Positions 45,084 to 53,281 of a stretch of DNA of 64,000 nucleotides are shown in pieces; position 1 is the stretch's first letter; every line of letters begins with the position of its first letter. Both the position numbers and the translations under genes were made by a program. Origin of the DNA: Acidovorax sp. 107 (GTDB lineage Bacteria; Pseudomonadota; Gammaproteobacteria; Burkholderiales; Burkholderiaceae_C); the NCBI RefSeq assembly GCF_003058055.1, contig NZ_QBTZ01000001.1, forward strand, positions 498,501 through 562,500. Direction: 5' to 3'. The notes under the pieces are model-generated. The model did no database searches, had not been told where the DNA came from, and worked only from the letters and a program-made list of their open reading frames with translations.

Positions 45084-46694
45084 ATGATCAAGAAGTTCAT
45101 CGACAAACTGCTGGGCAAATCGACGCCTGGAGCCTCGGGCGGCAAGCCCCACTTCGGCAAGCGCGAAGAGGTGCCGGCCTCGGTGCACGGCATCAACCCC
45201 GATCTGGTGGACCGCCGTGCCGCCGAGGTGGTGCAGACGCTCAAGGACGCGGGCTTCGAGGCCTACATCGTGGGCGGCGCCGTGCGCGACCTGCTGCTGG
45301 GCCTGCGCCCCAAGGACTTCGACGTGGCCACCAACGCCACGCCCGAGCAGGTCAAGGGCCTGTTCCGCCGCGCCTTCATCATCGGCAAGCGCTTTCGCAT
45401 CGTGCACGTGGTGCACGGCCGGGGGCGTGAGCACGAGGTGATCGAGGTCTCGACCTTCCGTGCCTACCTCGACAACGCCGCCGCGGGCCAGGTGGCGGGC
45501 AACGAAAAGACCAGCAAGGCGCAGCTGTCCAGCATGCAGCATGCCGTGGACGCCAGCGGCCGCGTGCTGCGTGACAACGTCTGGGGCCCGCAGGACGAAG
45601 ATGCGACGCGCCGCGACTTCACCGTGAACGCCATGTACTACGACCCGGTGAGCCAGGTCGTGGTGGACTACCACAAGGGTTTGCAGGACGCCAAGAAGAA
45701 GACGCTGCGCATGATTGGTGACCCCGCCACACGCTACCGCGAAGACCCGGTGCGCATCATCCGCGCGGTGCGCTTTGCCGCCAAGCTCAGCCCGCTGGGG
45801 TTCAGCATCGACGCCAAGTCGGCAGCGCCCCTGGTGCAGTCGCAGGCACTGCTGGCCGAGGTGCCCCAGAGCCGCATGTTTGACGAAATGCTCAAGCTGC
45901 TGCAGACGGGCCACGCCATTGCCACCATCGAGCAACTGCGCAAGCTGGGCATGGCCAAGGGCATTTACCCGTTGCTCGATGTGGCGGTGGAGCGTGCCGA
46001 CACCCCGTTCGTCAAAGCCGCTCTGGTGGACACCGACCGCCGCGTGAACGAAGGCAAGCCCGTGGCCCCCAGCTTCTTGCTGGCCTGCGTGCTGTGGGAA
46101 GACGTGCGCAATGGCTGGCAGGAGCGCCTGAACCAGCGCCAGCACCCGCTGCCCGCGCTGCAGGAGGCCATCGACGAGGTGTTCGACAAGCGCATCGGCG
46201 ACGTGTCGGGCCGGGGCAAGCTCGCAGCCGACATGCGCGAGATCTGGGTCATGCAGCCGCGCTTTGAAAAGCGCGTGGGCAATACGCCGTTCGGCATGGT
46301 GATGCAGCCGCGCTTCAGGGCCGGGTTCGACTTCATGCGTCTGCGTGCCGATGTGGGCGAGGTGGAAGAAGCGCTGGCCGAGTGGTGGCAGGACTTCCAG
46401 GCCGCCGACGACGAGCGCCGTGATGACCTGATGGACCAGGCCAAGGAAGAGCAGAAGGCGCGCCAGAAAGTGCAGCCTGTGGTCAAGCGCGTACCCCGCG
46501 CCGCACCCGCGGCCGATCCGCGCCGTGTGCCCCGTGCCGATGGCTCGGCGCCGGTCGCTGCTGGGTCGGATGCTGGGCCCGCGGACGGCGACACCGAATT
46601 CCCCTCAGACGGTGCTGCCCCCAAGAAGCGCCGCCGCCGCCGTCGCAAGCCGGGTGGTGGCGAAGGCGCCGCCCCCGCCACTGCGGGCGAGTGA
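45084..46694 (+). CDS. pcnB: Poly(A) polymerase I
   Basis: 536 residues from the ATG at 45084 (MIKKFIDKLLGK). Class II nucleotidyltransferase: 'YIVGGAVRDLLLGLRPKDFDVATNATPEQV' gives the GG...DxD catalytic part (about residues 62-85), followed by 'RFRIVHVVHGR' and 'DEDATRRDFTVNAMYYDP', and the 'EDPVRIIRAVRFAAKL' block typical of PcnB. It adds poly(A) to RNA 3' ends and promotes decay. The C-terminal 65 residues are basic and Pro/Ala-rich (KKRRRRRRKPGGG), a likely RNA-binding tail. Confidence 0.96.
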   Translation: MIKKFIDKLLGKSTPGASGGKPHFGKREEVPASVHGINPDLVDRRAAEVVQTLKDAGFEAYIVGGAVRDLLLGLRPKDFDVATNATPEQVKGLFRRAFIIGKRFRIVHVVHGRGREHEVIEVSTFRAYLDNAAAGQVAGNEKTSKAQLSSMQHAVDASGRVLRDNVWGPQDEDATRRDFTVNAMYYDPVSQVVVDYHKGLQDAKKKTLRMIGDPATRYREDPVRIIRAVRFAAKLSPLGFSIDAKSAAPLVQSQALLAEVPQSRMFDEMLKLLQTGHAIATIEQLRKLGMAKGIYPLLDVAVERADTPFVKAALVDTDRRVNEGKPVAPSFLLACVLWEDVRNGWQERLNQRQHPLPALQEAIDEVFDKRIGDVSGRGKLAADMREIWVMQPRFEKRVGNTPFGMVMQPRFRAGFDFMRLRADVGEVEEALAEWWQDFQAADDERRDDLMDQAKEEQKARQKVQPVVKRVPRAAPAADPRRVPRADGSAPVAAGSDAGPADGDTEFPSDGAAPKKRRRRRRKPGGGEGAAPATAGE

Positions 46695-46741
46695 CGTTAC
46701 CGAGAGCTGCCTTGACCGTGGCTGAGCCGGCGCATCCGGTG

Positions 46742-47266
46742 ATGAGCGATGCCGAGGGTGGCGCCCCGCGGGCAACCCCTGCGGTTTCCGTATTTATCGG
46801 CCTGGGCGCCAACCTGGGGGACCGGGAAGCCACCCTGCGCGCGGCCTTGGCCGCCATCGGCCGGTTGCCCGGGACGCAGCTTCTGCGTGTATCGCCCCTC
46901 TACGGCAGCGCGCCGGTCGATGCCGGTGGCCCGGACTACCTGAATGCTGTGGCCGAAGCAACCACCACCCTCGCGCCCGAGGCCCTGCTGCAGGCATTGC
47001 AATCCATCGAACAAGCCGCGGGCCGCGAGCGCCCCTACCGCAACGCCCCGCGCACGCTGGATCTGGACATCCTGTGGTTTGGCGACTGTGTGATGGACAC
47101 CCCCGCACTCACCGTGCCCCACCCCCGCATGGCCGAGCGTGCGTTTGTGTTGCGCCCCCTGGCCGACCTGGTGCCGGATCGGGTGGCGGCGTCCGCCTTG
47201 TCCGGGGTGGCAGACCAGTCCATTCGCTGCATTGCAAAGGCCGATTGGGTAGATTCTCCTGATTGA
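46742..47266 (+). CDS. folK: 2-amino-4-hydroxy-6-hydroxymethyldihydropteridine pyrophosphokinase
   Basis: 174 residues from the ATG at 46742; a GTG at 46691 overlapping the pcnB stop (GTGA) would add 17 residues. HPPK signatures are 'VFIGLGANLGDREATLRAAL', 'SPLYGSAPVDAGGPDYLNAV' and 'RPYRNAPRTLDLDILWFGD', with the two metal-binding aspartates of DLDIL. The enzyme transfers pyrophosphate from ATP in folate synthesis. It follows pcnB, as in many Proteobacteria. Confidence 0.93.
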   Translation: MSDAEGGAPRATPAVSVFIGLGANLGDREATLRAALAAIGRLPGTQLLRVSPLYGSAPVDAGGPDYLNAVAEATTTLAPEALLQALQSIEQAAGRERPYRNAPRTLDLDILWFGDCVMDTPALTVPHPRMAERAFVLRPLADLVPDRVAASALSGVADQSIRCIAKADWVDSPD

Positions 47267-47582
47267 TCAAGGTACGCGGGACAATTTCGCCAGGTGCCCT
47301 AAGCAAGCTCATTCGTTGCGCATCCAGAGTGGCCGTTTAGAGCTTTCCCTGTCCTGTTCATGTCGGAACTGAGCGCAAGGGGCTTTTCCGCTCACGCTGC
47401 TGGACAAATGCTCGGGGCGCAGTTTTCGGGCCTCAGAGTCCTTATTCAAGTCGACTGCAACGTGCGCTTGACCAGGAACAGCGGAAGCCGTTCACTGAGT
47501 TTTGACGCCGCTCTTAATGCGCAGTTAAGTGGCGGCAGACACATTCATTGCTTGCCCTTTTTCTACGGGCGGAGAATGTTGC
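47267..47582. other. Intergenic region before the glycosylation locus
   Basis: 316 bp with lower GC than the left neighbours. It holds a CTTAAT-N5-GTTAAG direct repeat (47513-47529) and a ribosome-binding site (GGAG) before the GTG at 47583. I see no convincing ORF. The glycosylation genes 47583-51448 should be transcribed from here. Confidence 0.6.
47513..47529 (+). promoter_or_regulatory. PmrA-like direct-repeat box
   Basis: CTTAAT-GCGCA-GTTAAG: two TTAA half sites 11 bp apart, as in the PmrA consensus CTTAAT-N5-CTTAAT. It lies 54 bp before the GT2 gene start, a suitable position for activation. The regulator is unknown; the QseB/PmrA-like regulator at 18596 is one candidate. Confidence 0.6.
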
Positions 47583-48635
47583 GTGAATCACCCGTTGATT
47601 GCAAAGGAAGTCGTCGCGCTCGTTGACCGAGCGGCCGAACAACCCGTTGCCTACAGCGCCGTCGCTGACCGTTCCGGTGAACTGCGCACCCTGCAGTCCA
47701 TCAGCTGCGTGATCCCATGCTACAACGAAGCCGAAAATCTGGAGCGCCTGCTGCCGTTGGTGTGCGAAGCGCTGGCCAGGTTGGCCCCGCGGTGGGAGAT
47801 CGTGCTGGTCGATGACGGTAGCTCGGACGGCACCGCCGAGCGCCTGCGGGAATGGACGCTCCAGCCTGGCGTGCGGGGGGTGCGGCTGTCGCGCAACTTT
47901 GGCAAAGAAGCTGCGCTCACGGCCGGTCTGCAGGTCGCTGCGGGCGACGTGGTGGCGACGATGGATGCGGACCTTCAGCATCCCCCTGCCTTGCTGGATA
48001 GCTTCGTGCGCCACTGGCGCGCCGGGGCCGACGTGGTGTACGCAGTGCGCAAGCACCGCGAGACCGAGAGTGCCTTCAAGCGCTTGGGGGTACGCTGGTT
48101 TTACCGCCTGATCAATGGAGCAGACCGGTTTGAGGTGCCGCCCGGCGCAGGGGATTTCCGCTTGATGGATCGCAAGGTGGTGGATGCACTGCTGGCGCTA
48201 CCGGAGCGCAATCGGTTCATGAAGGGTTTGTACGCCTGGGTGGGATTTGAGGCAGTGGCAATACCCTATGTGCCTGATGCCAGGGTTCACGGACACAGTC
48301 ATTTCAGTCCGATCCGCATGATCCGGTTGGCGTTGGATGGTTTGACGGCTTTCACCGTGTGGCCACTGCGTGCGGTGATTGCGCTGGGTTTTGTGTTGGC
48401 GCTGCTGGCGTTTGGCTATGGTGCGTACCTCACGGTCACCTACTTCCTGTACGGCCACGACGTGAGTGGCTGGACCACCATTGTTGTGAGTCTGATGCTG
48501 TTTGCCGGTATCCAGTTGGTTTCCCTGGGTGTGGTCGGTGAGTATGTGGGGCGCATCTACGAGGAAGTGAAGCGACGGCCGTTGTATGTCGTGGAGTCCG
48601 ATTTGGGTCGTGGTTTGGGGGCGTTCCATGAATGA
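47583..48635 (+). CDS. Family 2 glycosyltransferase (ArnC/DPM1-like), undecaprenyl-phosphate sugar transferase
   Basis: 350 residues from a GTG at 47583 with GGAG eight bases upstream; a farther in-frame GTG at 47529 lacks that. GT-A fold with 'SCVIPCYNEAENLERLL', 'VLVDDGSSDGTAE' (about residue 77) and 'ATMDADLQHPP' (about residue 128, D-x-D). The C-terminus has two transmembrane helices, as in ArnC and GtrB. Such enzymes load a sugar onto undecaprenyl phosphate at the inner membrane. With an ArnT-like gene next, GlcNAc, GalNAc or another hexosamine is a good candidate, because no Ara4N synthesis genes (arnA, arnB, arnD) are here. Its stop overlaps the next start by 8 bp. Confidence 0.92.
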   Translation: MNHPLIAKEVVALVDRAAEQPVAYSAVADRSGELRTLQSISCVIPCYNEAENLERLLPLVCEALARLAPRWEIVLVDDGSSDGTAERLREWTLQPGVRGVRLSRNFGKEAALTAGLQVAAGDVVATMDADLQHPPALLDSFVRHWRAGADVVYAVRKHRETESAFKRLGVRWFYRLINGADRFEVPPGAGDFRLMDRKVVDALLALPERNRFMKGLYAWVGFEAVAIPYVPDARVHGHSHFSPIRMIRLALDGLTAFTVWPLRAVIALGFVLALLAFGYGAYLTVTYFLYGHDVSGWTTIVVSLMLFAGIQLVSLGVVGEYVGRIYEEVKRRPLYVVESDLGRGLGAFHE

Positions 48636-50205
48636 TTGGAAGCGTTCGGGCGGACTGCGTGATGGAGTGCTTGTCGCCGCGTTGATTCTTTTTTGGCTGG
48701 CTGCCACTGCATGGGCGCGTCCCTTGATGCTGCCCGACGAGGGGCGGTATGTCTCGGTGGCCTGGGAGATGCTGCGTTCTGGTGATTGGCTGACACCGAC
48801 GCTCAACGGCTTGCCCTTCTTCCACAAGCCACCCCTGTTTTATTGGATCACTGGCGCAGCGTTGTCGGTGGGAGGATTGACAGAGATTGCCGCCCGTGCG
48901 GCATCCATTGCTGGAGCGACCTTGGGCGCATTGTCTTTGTACCTCTTCACAAGGCACTGGTGTGGTTTGGCATCGGCACGGCGTGCCTTGTGGGTGCTCT
49001 TGGCTCAGCCTCTGTTTTTTGTGGGCGGGCAGTTCGCCAACCTTGACATGCTGGTAGCCGGCTGTATCACCGCCACGATCCTGGCGTTGGCCCATGCAGC
49101 CTTGTGTTTTGAGCAAGGGCTTGCTTACCGCAGGGCCTTGCTGCTGGCCTATGGCCTGTCCGCCTTGGGCGTTTTGGCCAAGGGGCTGATCGGCTTTGTG
49201 ATACCTGCCATGGTGGTGGGCTTCTGGCTGGTGTTGCGCAGACGCTGGCGCACGGTCTGGGCGCTCATGTCCCCAACGGGGGCGATGCTGTTTTTGCTGG
49301 GGGCAGCCCCCTGGTTTCTTGCCATGCAGCAGCGTTTCGATGGCTTCCTGCACTATTTTTTTGTGGTGCAGCATTTCCAGCGCTTTGCAGCCGGCGGGTT
49401 CAACAACGTACAACCTGCATGGTTTTACCCCGTGGTTTTGGCGCTGATGAGTTTGCCTTGTCTGCTGTGGAGCCGCAGCTTGCTGACGCAGAGGTACTTT
49501 GTGGGGATAGCTGCGGTATCGCCTCAGCATGCCGCAGTGCGCCAGTTGATGGGGCTGGCGGTGTTTTGCGTGGTGTTGTTCTTTTCAATGCCGCAATCCA
49601 AGTTGCTAGGCTATATCTTCCCTGCCGTTGCTCCCTTGGCGTGGCTGATGGCCGACGCCAGCGGGGCATCAGCCACGGGAGCTTCACGCCAGCGCTGGTG
49701 GTGGGCCACTCTCGCGTTCAGTGCAGTGTTGGGGCTGGGTGTGGTGGCAGGGTTGGTGTGGGATCAACGCCATTCCACCCGCAACCTTGGGCTTGCTCTG
49801 CGCGAGTACCGGGCTGACGGCGAGCCCGTGTATTTCATTCGGAGCTATCACTACGACGTACCGTTCTATGCGCGTCTGCAAGACCCTGTGGTGGTGGTTG
49901 ATGATTGGGATGATCCAGAAATTGCATTGCGCGATAACTGGCGCAAGGAGATGTCGGATGCAGGCGGATTCTCTCGCCAGCGCGCAGAACAGTTGCTGAT
50001 GACGCCAGTAGCGCTGCCTGCGGCGCTTTGCCGCCAGCCGGTCAGCTGGGTGGTAGCGTCTGAGGCATTGCGCAAGCGCTACGATTTTCTGGCGCAAGCA
50101 GAAGCGGTGCTCACCTTGCGTGGGGAAACCCTGTGGCGCGTCGATGTGCGCCAGCCCGCACAGCTCAGCGCTCTGCGCTGCGCAGGAACGCCCAATGGCG
50201 GCTGA
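48628..50205 (+). CDS. ArnT-like glycosyltransferase (GT83), lipid A sugar transferase
   Basis: 525 residues from the ATG at 48628. About 12 transmembrane segments and a periplasmic C-terminal domain, as in ArnT. The N-terminal catalytic loop LMLPDEGRYVSVAWEML (Asp37-Glu38) and 'LPFFHKPPLFYW' correspond to the metal-binding and catalytic loops of GT-C enzymes of this family. ArnT moves a sugar from undecaprenyl phosphate to lipid A phosphate in the periplasm. Homologues FlmK (Francisella) and LgmB (Bordetella) transfer hexosamines. It overlaps the GT2 gene by 8 bp and has lower GC than genes further left. Confidence 0.92.
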   Translation: MNDWKRSGGLRDGVLVAALILFWLAATAWARPLMLPDEGRYVSVAWEMLRSGDWLTPTLNGLPFFHKPPLFYWITGAALSVGGLTEIAARAASIAGATLGALSLYLFTRHWCGLASARRALWVLLAQPLFFVGGQFANLDMLVAGCITATILALAHAALCFEQGLAYRRALLLAYGLSALGVLAKGLIGFVIPAMVVGFWLVLRRRWRTVWALMSPTGAMLFLLGAAPWFLAMQQRFDGFLHYFFVVQHFQRFAAGGFNNVQPAWFYPVVLALMSLPCLLWSRSLLTQRYFVGIAAVSPQHAAVRQLMGLAVFCVVLFFSMPQSKLLGYIFPAVAPLAWLMADASGASATGASRQRWWWATLAFSAVLGLGVVAGLVWDQRHSTRNLGLALREYRADGEPVYFIRSYHYDVPFYARLQDPVVVVDDWDDPEIALRDNWRKEMSDAGGFSRQRAEQLLMTPVALPAALCRQPVSWVVASEALRKRYDFLAQAEAVLTLRGETLWRVDVRQPAQLSALRCAGTPNGG

Positions 50206-50596
50206 GCAAGTAGGTCGCTCCGGCCACCGAGACCAACACGCAGGCCAGCAGCAGGTCGTAGCGCGCCGAGGTCCACCGCAACAGCAATGCATAGGCGAGT
50301 TCGTTGACGAGAAAGCCTCCACCCGAAATACACAGGAAGCGCAACCCAGCGCTGCCCACGGAGGCACCATGACCGCGAAAGCTGAGCTGGTGGTGACCGG
50401 TGAACGACACCGTCAGTGCGACGATCCAGCCCACGACGTTTGCCTGCAGTGGCGCCCAATGCGCGAACGCCACCATGCCGGTGGCGACGCCCCAATGCAC
50501 AGCAGCGGCGACGCATCCGACCACCACAAACCAGCCGATGCGGCCGCGCTGCTTGTTGGCAAATCGCAGGAGATGGGGTGGCCGGTTTTGGATCAT
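50165..50596 (-). CDS. GtrA-family membrane protein (putative flippase)
   Basis: 143 residues from the ATG at 50596 (MIQNRPPHLLRF); an ATG at 50608 is also open. Four transmembrane segments with the GtrA patterns 'FVVVGCVAAAVHWGVATGMV', 'NVVGWIVALTVSFTGHHQLSFR' and 'FLCISGGGFLVNELAYALLL'. GtrA proteins are proposed to flip undecaprenyl-phosphate-linked sugars across the inner membrane. The gene lies antisense to the locus: convergent with the ArnT-like gene (41 bp overlap) and divergent from the YdjC-like gene (about 24 bp overlap). Confidence 0.9.
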   Translation of the reverse strand: MIQNRPPHLLRFANKQRGRIGWFVVVGCVAAAVHWGVATGMVAFAHWAPLQANVVGWIVALTVSFTGHHQLSFRGHGASVGSAGLRFLCISGGGFLVNELAYALLLRWTSARYDLLLACVLVSVAGATYLLSRHWAFLRSAER

Positions 50597-51448
50597 GGTG
50601 GGGCACACCAGCTTAGCAGTTGGCGCAGCATCAGCATTTGCGTGGACGACTTTGGTTTACACCAAGGTATCAATGAGGCTGTATTCGCCCTGGCGCGACA
50701 GGGGCGTGTGCAGGCTGTGTCTGCCATGGTGGGCGGCGCGGCGTGGATAGAAGGCGCGCGGGGCTTGTTTGAGGTAGCACGCACAGGTAGCGTAGAAATA
50801 GGGTTGCACCTGGACCTCACAGAGTGTCCGATCAACCCCGCAAGCCGCCGGCCCTTGGGTCACCTGATTGCGCAGGCTTACCTGCACCAACTGGGCCCAG
50901 CAGCTCTGCGTGCAGAGGTAGCGAGTCAACTGGACGCTTTTGAAGCGGCTCTGGGCTGCGCTCCCGCCTATGTGGATGGGCATCAACACGTGCATCAGTT
51001 GCCGCAGGTACGCAATGTGCTGCTGCAAGAACTTGCCGACAGATATCCCTCGGGTGGGCTGTGGTTGCGCGCGACGCATGCACCGCAAGGAGCGGCACAT
51101 CTTGATGCGCGCACTCGGTTCAAGAGCCACGTCATTGCGTGGTTGGGTGCACGGGCGCTATCGGCACTTGCGCAGCATCAGGGGCTGCGGCAAAACGCGC
51201 GGTTGCTGGGTGTCTATGACTTCCGTGGAGATGCTGCTCAGTACCGCGCCCGGCTCGATGCATGGCTGCATGCGGCTCGCCATGGCGATCTGCTGATGTG
51301 CCATGCCGGGCTGCTTTCACCAGGCGAGCATGATTTGCTGACAGCGGCTCGGCAGGCAGAGCTTGAGGTTCTTGGCGCAGAAGCTTTTGAGGACACTCTC
51401 CATGCTGCGCGCGTGCGTCTTGCGCCGATGGGGCAAATTTTGGCGTGA
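50573..51448 (+). CDS. YdjC/ChbG-family deacetylase (NaxD/LgmC-like)
   Basis: 291 residues from the ATG at 50573; the start is uncertain (a TTG at 50588 is possible). Clear YdjC domain: 'SICVDDFGLHQGINEAVF' (metal-binding Asp-Asp), 'VEIGLHLDLTE' and 'AYVDGHQHVHQLPQV' (metal-binding His). YdjC proteins remove acetyl groups from N-acetylhexosamines. In Francisella, NaxD deacetylates undecaprenyl-phosphate-GalNAc before transfer to lipid A, and a similar deacetylase acts in Bordetella Lgm. The adjacent ArnT-like gene makes this the most likely role here. It has no signal peptide, so it works in the cytoplasm. Confidence 0.88.
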   Translation: MGWPVLDHGGAHQLSSWRSISICVDDFGLHQGINEAVFALARQGRVQAVSAMVGGAAWIEGARGLFEVARTGSVEIGLHLDLTECPINPASRRPLGHLIAQAYLHQLGPAALRAEVASQLDAFEAALGCAPAYVDGHQHVHQLPQVRNVLLQELADRYPSGGLWLRATHAPQGAAHLDARTRFKSHVIAWLGARALSALAQHQGLRQNARLLGVYDFRGDAAQYRARLDAWLHAARHGDLLMCHAGLLSPGEHDLLTAARQAELEVLGAEAFEDTLHAARVRLAPMGQILA

Positions 51449-51541
51449 CTGTCAGCGCAATGAAGGGCAGCGTCCATGCCGCCCCGCGAGGCGAGGGCGA
51501 TACCGCGACACGGTACCACGGTACATCCATCGCCCCGCTTC

Positions 51542-52522
51542 TTAATCCACCTTGGCCCCGGACGCCTTCACCACCTGCTGGTACTTGGCACGTTCGCTGG
51601 CCATGAAGCTGTCGAACTGCTGCGGCGTGGTGGCCACGGGTTCGGCCAGCAGGGCGGCAAAGCGGGTCTTGGTCTCGGGCGCATTCAGCGCCGCCACAAA
51701 GGCCTTGTTCAGCTTGTCGATGATGGGCTTGGGCGTGGCGGCAGGCGCCACCAGGCCCCACCAGGTGTCGATGGAGAAGCCCTTGAACGTGGCAGACAGG
51801 GGCGGCACGCCCGGCAGCGAGGCCGAGGCGTCGAGCGAGGTCACGGCCAGCGCCTTGAGCTTGCCCGCGCGGATATTGGGCGCAGCGGCGGCCAAGTTGT
51901 CGATGTTGAAGTCCACCTCGCCCGCCAGTAGCGCCAGCTGGGCCGGGTTGGCGCCCCGGTAGGGGATGTGCAGGGCATAAATGCCAGCGCGCTGCTTGAA
52001 CATTTCACCGGCCAGGTGGCCCGCGCTGCCGTTGCCGCCGCTGCCGTAGTTCAGCTTGGCGGGGTTGGCCTTGGCGTAGGCAATCAGGTCGGCCACGGTG
52101 TGGATCTTGAGCTGCTCGGCCTTGGCGGCGTTCATGACCAGCACGTTGGGCACGCGCACCATCTGCGTGATGCCGGCGAAGTCCTTGCCTGCGTCGTAGG
52201 GCATGCGGGCATACAGCCAGGGGTTGACCGCATGGGTGGCGGTGGCTGCGATACCAATCGTCAGACCGTCGGGTGCTGCCTTGGCAATGGCGTCGGCGCC
52301 AATGTTGCCGCCTGCGCCGCCCTTGTTGTCGATGATGACCGTGCCCAGCGAATCGCGCACGCGCTCGGCCAGCGCGCGGGCCGTCACATCGATGGGGCCG
52401 CCAGGTGCATACGGCACGATCAGGCGGATGGGCTGGCCGGCATCCTGCGCCGAAGCGATGGAGGGAGAAAACACCGTTGCGGCGGCAACGGCACTGGCGA
52501 GGAGGATGTTTCTGCGGTTCAT
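51542..52522 (-). CDS. Tripartite tricarboxylate transporter (Bug/TctC) substrate-binding protein
   Basis: 326 residues from the ATG at 52522 (MNRRNILL); an ATG three codons earlier is also open. A signal peptide ends near IASAQDA (about residue 26). Bug signatures are 'PIRLIVPYAPGGPIDVTARALAERV', 'VIIDNKGGAGGNIGADAIAKAAPDGLTIG' and 'NYGSGGNGSAGHLAGEMFK'. It binds a carboxylate in the periplasm. No TctA/TctB membrane genes are adjacent. The two-component genes upstream and on the same strand suggest that it may act as a sensor input, as shown for Bordetella BctC. Confidence 0.95.
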   Translation of the reverse strand: MNRRNILLASAVAAATVFSPSIASAQDAGQPIRLIVPYAPGGPIDVTARALAERVRDSLGTVIIDNKGGAGGNIGADAIAKAAPDGLTIGIAATATHAVNPWLYARMPYDAGKDFAGITQMVRVPNVLVMNAAKAEQLKIHTVADLIAYAKANPAKLNYGSGGNGSAGHLAGEMFKQRAGIYALHIPYRGANPAQLALLAGEVDFNIDNLAAAAPNIRAGKLKALAVTSLDASASLPGVPPLSATFKGFSIDTWWGLVAPAATPKPIIDKLNKAFVAALNAPETKTRFAALLAEPVATTPQQFDSFMASERAKYQQVVKASGAKVD

Positions 52523-52594
52523 GGGTGCCATTGTGCAAAAAATTCGTAAGAAAGCTTATGAAGCCCTGAGGCGGTGATGGTCAGGCGGCGACGT

Positions 52595-53281
52595 TCATGC
52601 GGAACGGGGTGCGCCGAGCGTCACACCCAGGTCTTCTACCAGCATGCCCAGTTCGTGCGACGAGCGGATGTCGAGCTTCAGGAAGATGGCGGACCGGTGC
52701 GTGTCCACGGTGCGCGGGTCGATGGGGCGCTCCGGGTCTCGCTGGGCCAATGCGCGGGCCACTTCTTTGCTGCTGAGGCCCGTGCCCAGCAGTTGGGCCA
52801 CCTCTTGCTGGCGTGGGCTCAGGGCGCTCCAGCGCTCCCGCAGCAAGTGCTGCCGCTGCGCCTGCTGTGCCTGCGCCTTCGACAGCGTCGAGGCTTTCTC
52901 GACAGCGGCCAGCAAGGTGGCTTCGTTGCACGGCTTTTCGAGCCAGTCCACCGCGCCCTGCTTGACTGCCGCGACGGCGGAGGACAGTTCGCCATGGGCC
53001 GACAGGAAAACGGTCTTGAGCGCGCTGTGGCGCTGGCCGAGTTCGTGGAACACCTGCAGCCCGCTCAGGCCCTCCATGCGCAGGTCCAGCAGCACGCAAC
53101 CGGACTGGTCCAGGGCGGCTTGAGCCAGAAAGGCCTCACCGCCCTTAAAGGAGCGCACCGTGTATCCGCGTGCCAGCAGCAGGGTCGCCAGCGATTGGCG
53201 CACGCCTTCGTCGTCGTCCACGATGTAGACCACGGTGTCATCGGGCGACTCGGCGGCGGTGGGGAGGGTGTCGTAGGTCAT
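52595..53281 (-). CDS. FixJ/NarL-type response regulator
   Basis: 228 residues. The receiver has the acidic pocket (VDDDEGVRQS), the phosphoacceptor Asp66 (CVLLDLRMEG) and Lys near residue 116 (WLEKPC). The C-terminal LuxR-type helix-turn-helix reads 'LSPRQQEVAQLLGTGLSSKEVARAL...DPRTVDTHRSAIFLKL'. The ATG overlaps the stop of the sensor kinase gene (ATGA), so the two are coupled. It likely controls transport genes; the Bug gene starts 72 bp downstream. Confidence 0.95.
   Translation of the reverse strand: MTYDTLPTAAESPDDTVVYIVDDDEGVRQSLATLLLARGYTVRSFKGGEAFLAQAALDQSGCVLLDLRMEGLSGLQVFHELGQRHSALKTVFLSAHGELSSAVAAVKQGAVDWLEKPCNEATLLAAVEKASTLSKAQAQQAQRQHLLRERWSALSPRQQEVAQLLGTGLSSKEVARALAQRDPERPIDPRTVDTHRSAIFLKLDIRSSHELGMLVEDLGVTLGAPRSA

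Follow-up and report, generated by a model that had tools for sequence, protein, structure and literature searches.

A stretch of 64,000 nucleotides (nt) from Acidovorax sp. 107, referred to throughout as the window, contains at 47583-51448 a cluster of four genes that very probably encodes a lipid A hexosamine modification system of the Lgm/NaxD type, as a sequence-only reading of the same DNA had proposed. The function is the one expected for these families, and systems of this kind are already known; support for the assignment comes from the orthology of the ArnT-like protein to Bordetella LgmB, a gene order that recurs in Bordetella, intact catalytic residues, the fold, the absence of ArnD from the genome and the co-occurrence of YdjC with the higher-scoring ArnT-like proteins in genomes of the family. 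All four genes named in the sequence-only reading were confirmed, at correct coordinates, as open frames with Pfam matches, although that reading had not mentioned that gtrA lies on the minus strand. The features are as follows.

47583..48635, plus strand: polyprenyl-phosphate glycosyltransferase of glycosyltransferase family 2 (GT2), LgmA-like and of GtrB/PgfS type; start GTG at 47583 or TTG at 47595.
48628..50205, plus strand: ArnT-like glycosyltransferase of the C type (GT-C), orthologue of LgmB; it shares its first 8 nt, from the ATG on, with the end of the GT2 gene.
50165..50608, minus strand: GtrA-family membrane protein, putative flippase; start GTG at 50608 or ATG at 50596.
50573..51448, plus strand: YdjC-family N-deacetylase, NaxD-like; start codon uncertain.
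50165..50205, both strands: convergent overlap of the arnT-like and gtrA 3' ends, 41 nt.

Each protein matched its Pfam family above the curated cut-off: the GT2 matched Glycos_transf_2 (PF00535, 122 bits, 2.8e-35), the ArnT-like protein PMT_2 (40 bits), GtrA the GtrA_DPMS_TM family (PF04138, 67 bits, 1.7e-18) and YdjC PF04794 (155 bits, 3.3e-45). When read from ATG 50596, gtrA overlaps the start of ydjC by 24 nt. The whole genome (5.11 Mb in two contigs) encodes a single YdjC protein, a single ArnT-like match and two GtrA proteins.

As the anchor for LgmB we used P0291, a B. parapertussis protein of 539 amino acids with Leu3 and Gly539, which fits the LgmB deletion published as L3-G539 (PMC12039235). 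The window ArnT-like protein is 43% identical to Bordetella LgmB over 515 amino acids, compared with 33% to Escherichia coli ArnT over 317 amino acids, and in the tree it falls inside an LgmB clade of 27 rows (support 100/100), outside which lie eight ArnTs of the type that transfers 4-amino-4-deoxy-arabinose (Ara4N), namely seven arnD-linked proteins and E. coli ArnT. The two sets differ at the position directly before the ArnT catalytic Lys (K67): this residue, His66 in the window protein, is His in all 27 LgmB-clade rows and Glu in all eight rows of the Ara4N set. Among the 69 ArnT rows, three that fall outside the LgmB clade (L037, L067 and L071) have Ala or Gly at this position and one (L030) has a gap. 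The window protein has the ArnT fold, and its catalytic residues are present, with D37, R40, K67, D140 and Y329 corresponding to D55, R58, K85, D158 and Y345 of the C. metallidurans enzyme. Against the cut-off of 567 bits for the Ara4N-ArnT model it scored 159 bits, and LgmB itself scored 199.

The active site of the YdjC protein is also intact. In K. pneumoniae ChbG, D11, H61 and H125 are reported to bind the metal, D10 and H206 probably to act as acid and base, and R223 to lie in the groove (PMC9402603). The window residues D25, D26, H79, H137, H244 and R260, counted from the ATG at 50573, are identical to these ChbG residues at all six positions, the pairings of H244 and R260 being made by position and invariance, as the pairwise alignment with ChbG ends earlier. 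Among 82 YdjC rows, both Asp residues are kept in 81 (the other has a gap) and the remaining four residues in all 82. The predicted structure has a predicted local distance difference test (pLDDT) score of 92.2, with residues 1-13 below 50, and its best fold match is ChbG (7vi8), with a template modelling (TM) score by query of 0.66-0.68. We nevertheless rejected an identity as ChbG or HpnK, because the protein scored only 64.4 of 227 and 59.2 of 232.6 bits, respectively, against the NCBIfam cut-offs; the B. pertussis YdjC protein P0088, with which it shares 41% identity across 274 amino acids, lies likewise far below both.

The GT2 had been described in the sequence-only reading as ArnC-like. 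Its family is as stated, but it lies nearer to GtrB sll0501, its best solved relative (285 bits, 8e-84), and to PgfS, its best curated model (270.6 bits), than to ArnC (187 and 167 bits; 34% identity to the E. coli protein). Over 314 amino acids it shares 58% identity with its counterpart in Bordetella genomosp. 4, whose locus has the same gene order as the window, with gtrA reversed.

The lgmABC genes of Bordetella have been given as BP0399-BP0397 (PMC6181320) and the lgm cluster as BP0396-0399 (PMC9858536). The system is reported to add glucosamine (GlcN) to lipid A, seen as +161 (PMC11895810, PMC11401268), with LgmB acting on the lipid A phosphates (PMC11401268, PMC12039235), and in B. pertussis lgmA, lgmB and lgmC are described as required for the modification and lgmD as not essential (PMC4993483). 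The window cluster resembles it in the orthologous ArnT-like protein and in YdjC, but its genomic setting differs, with folK on one side and a TctC-type gene on the other, and its function here is predicted. The same kinds of enzyme, a polyprenyl-phosphate N-acetylhexosamine transferase, an ArnT-like transferase and a YdjC deacetylase, make up Francisella flmF/flmK/naxD, which places galactosamine (GalN) on lipid A.

In the proposed route, the window GT2 would load undecaprenyl phosphate, on its cytoplasmic side, with N-acetylglucosamine (or N-acetylgalactosamine) taken from the uridine diphosphate-sugar, YdjC would then remove the acetyl group to give a free amine, GtrA (or another flippase) would turn the carrier to the periplasmic face, and the ArnT-like GT-C enzyme would pass the hexosamine to a lipid A phosphate. 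We infer that the sugar is GlcN or GalN; among the matches listed for the literature on Acidovorax lipid A, no title or abstract opening settled its identity. A hexosamine on lipid A would make the surface charge less negative, and would in this way lower the sensitivity to cationic peptides.

Gene order was compared in 80 other loci, which are the best 80 of 506 matches to the window YdjC, taken from named records and not a random sample; with the window they give 81 entries. The order GT2 (plus), ArnT (plus), GtrA (minus), YdjC (plus) occurs in 42 of the 80 (43 of the 81 entries), three of which (L010, L014 and L036) were counted by coordinates instead of by the midpoints of stop-to-stop frames. 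It is seen in Acidovorax soli, Comamonas, Achromobacter, Alcaligenes and Bordetella genomosp. 4 (L081), and also in Thiobacillus, Accumulibacter and Thermomonas haemolytica. A GT2 and an ArnT-like gene share the stretch with YdjC in 64 of the 80 loci (65 of the 81 entries); 15 entries have rarer orders, are frame-broken or are cut by contig ends.

Across 150 genomes of the family, a YdjC match was found in 54 and an ArnT-like match scoring 200 bits or more in 39. All 39 of the latter genomes, a set defined by score and of which some proteins were placed in the tree, carry YdjC (Fisher p 5e-24, uncorrected for kinship), and for 35 of the 54 YdjC genes some ArnT-like match lies no more than 6 kb away. 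Nine of the 14 ArnD genes in the family have an ArnT-like match within 10 kb, scoring 102-132 bits to the window protein, and ArnD and YdjC occur together in five of the 150 genomes. The linkage counts of ArnD and YdjC with ArnT therefore indicate that two kinds of ArnT, with two partners, coexist in the family.

Several observations weigh against a lipid A hexosamine system. Among curated models and solved structures, PgfS and GtrB come closest to the GT2, which falls under the PgfS cut-off of 500 bits, so that the sugar is not readable from its sequence. Seventeen of the 80 loci have GT2, ArnT-like and YdjC genes with no GtrA in the fetched stretch (11 in the order GT2, ArnT, YdjC and six in the order GT2, YdjC, ArnT), 19 of the 54 family YdjC genes are without an ArnT-like match within 6 kb, and nine of the 35 nearby ArnT-like matches score below 100 bits. 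A genome of the same genus (G076) has no YdjC or ArnT-like match and none of the four genes at the site, and in genome G127 the folK site holds an LgmB-type ArnT alone, with GT2, GtrA and YdjC on another contig. With regard to GtrA, the flippase may be replaceable, because lgmD is reported not to be needed in Bordetella and no gtrA was found in those 17 loci. Two loci, from Thermomonas beijingensis (L004) and a metagenome-assembled genome of the Lysobacteraceae (L005), are without gtrA and encode proteins 58-71% identical to those of the window; the ArnT tree places them with the Comamonadaceae, and they may have been transferred horizontally and have lost gtrA.

The ArnT fold, and ArnB-like matches of up to 46% identity elsewhere in the genome, would suit a remnant of an Arn system in which the ArnT-like protein adds Ara4N supplied from elsewhere, and the window is like E. 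coli K-12 arnBCADTEF in combining a GT2 with an ArnT-fold enzyme and, probably, in sending an amine-bearing sugar to lipid A. We consider this explanation most improbable, however. The window deacetylase is YdjC instead of ArnD; a whole-genome search gave no match to ArnD, with a query that detects ArnD in 14 of the 150 family genomes, and just two separate partial matches to ArnA; and the tree groups the ArnT-like protein with LgmB and not with the arnD-linked ArnTs, the two sets being split by His and Glu at the position described above. Moreover, three genomes (G040, G081 and G084) each have an arnD-linked ArnT plus a separate YdjC-linked ArnT; G090 also has both kinds, the high-scoring ArnT lying on a different contig from YdjC. 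With neither ArnD nor a whole ArnA found in the genome, and with the ArnT-like protein placed beside LgmB in the tree, an Ara4N system was rejected. The earlier argument that no arnA, arnB or arnD is present holds across the genome for ArnD and for a whole ArnA, but ArnB-like matches do occur outside the locus. Three ArnB-like aminotransferase matches (best 46% identical) lie within about 10 kb at G000:C1:4667945-4678054, and a fourth (36%) lies beside the second GtrA at G000:C1:3897980-3901328; these regions are probably other amino-sugar clusters.

Gtr serotype-conversion triads consist of GtrA, GtrB and a strain-specific glycosyltransferase, and the window shares with them GtrA and a GtrB-like GT2. 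The sugar, made an amine by YdjC, might accordingly go to O-antigen, core or another periplasmic glycan instead of lipid A. In six of the 80 loci, GT2 and YdjC accompany a reversed GtrA and the fetched stretch shows no clear ArnT-like gene; GT2, GtrA and YdjC likewise stand without a clear ArnT-like gene in the stretches fetched for L103-L105, and a similar donor module may serve other acceptors. Even so, such a destination seems unlikely here, since the GT-C enzyme of the window is the orthologue of LgmB, which in Bordetella acts on lipid A phosphates; the window also differs from Gtr triads in having YdjC and an antisense gtrA. In five loci with GT2 and YdjC (L009, L018, L027, L038 and L044) the sole ArnT-like frames are very weak (20-30 bits), and these may encode GT-C enzymes of a different kind, by which the amino sugar reaches some other acceptor. 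It is also conceivable that YdjC is an unrelated neighbour, a chitooligosaccharide or hopanoid enzyme beside a plain glycosylation triad, given that gtrA stands on the opposite strand between ydjC and the GT2 and arnT genes, and that the YdjC family includes ChbG and HpnK. The scores far under both of their cut-offs, the accompanying GT2 and ArnT-like genes in 64 of the 80 loci and the co-occurrence in 39 of 39 genomes all speak against this, and make it highly improbable.

The reversal of gtrA is widespread, being found beside ydjC in 51 of the 80 other loci. Of the 46 pairs (window included) of a plus-strand arnT with a minus-strand gtrA, 45 have overlapping 3' ends, all in one phase and over lengths of 23 to 143 nt; in the sole pair without overlap (L035, -611), the ArnT frame is broken into two pieces, of which the first was measured. 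With the chosen starts, gtrA and ydjC range from a 99 nt overlap to a separation of 197 nt (52 entries). The arrangement is not tied to the ArnT-like gene, because gtrA is likewise reversed in the six loci where no clear ArnT-like gene was seen. Other orientations occur as well: in L103 and L105 gtrA runs in the same direction as GT2 and ydjC, in L104 in that of GT2 only, and in L037, L067, L071 and L077 it lies on the ydjC strand. The N-terminal extension of B. pertussis P0088 resembles the antisense reading of gtrA from Bordetella genomosp. 4 (score 136, compared with at most 74 in 500 shuffles), so that B. pertussis, too, probably has sequence antisense to the 5' portion of gtrA ahead of its ydjC; the resemblance speaks for homologous DNA of this 5' part, not for an intact gene. 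No entry named B. pertussis appeared among the best 120 of 365 GtrA matches, most of which are nameless.

Layouts of this sort are known as noncontiguous operons or excludons. The reversed gtrA might be a conserved control device, with arnT-gtrA-ydjC forming a noncontiguous operon whose flippase transcript and arnT/ydjC transcript set each other's level, but we regard this as rather doubtful. The overlapping transcripts would act by double-stranded RNA processing or by transcriptional interference, and the device would have persisted in Burkholderiales, Accumulibacter/Propionivibrio, Thiobacillus and a Thermomonas. Common ancestry by itself could preserve the arrangement, and its conservation is therefore no proof of function. 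In B. pertussis, lgm transcripts are reported to be almost six-fold up in an RNase E mutant (PMC8386462). This effect would fit control at the RNA level, although gtrA is not named in that context.

Upstream of the cluster lie pcnB, whose product is 93% identical to that of A. soli, and folK; downstream, on the other strand, are the TctC-type receptor gene and a two-component pair. The closeness of such relatives points to a host within the Comamonadaceae. In the window and four relatives, namely A. soli (L002), Paenacidovorax caeni (L003), Comamonas terrae (L006) and L057, the cluster occupies the interval from folK to the TctC-type gene. The corresponding site of G076 (L101 3331-5093) holds two other genes instead, one of the isochorismatase family and one for a regulator of AraC/DJ-1 type. 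The lone ArnT of G127 (L102 6914-8392) is about 71% identical, and its GT2, GtrA and YdjC genes stand together (L103 8498-10799) in a fetched stretch that shows no ArnT-like gene, the donor and acceptor parts of the pathway being split apart. The locus appears to be old at the folK site in these relatives and to have been lost or reduced in places. No known RNA family reached the gathering threshold in 46600-52600. A scan of 47200-51700 found no sigma-70 promoter, compared with 0.9 expected by chance, and nine terminator-like sites, compared with 5.2 ± 2.7 expected, and neither result was taken as a signal. In a search for a conserved upstream element, comparison of window positions 47201-47640 with seven near relatives gave just short weak matches of 12-39 nt, the best of which (E 7e-4) lies inside coding DNA; one match, in L002, lies around the GT2 start.

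The comparison provides sequence markers by which hexosamine systems may be told from Ara4N systems, namely membership of the LgmB clade, His in place of Glu before the catalytic Lys, and a YdjC partner. The widely kept antisense gtrA raises a testable question about the balance between flippase and transferase. With an Lgm/NaxD-type function for the window cluster, the modification of lipid A by an amino sugar, as in Bordetella, would extend to environmental Comamonadaceae.

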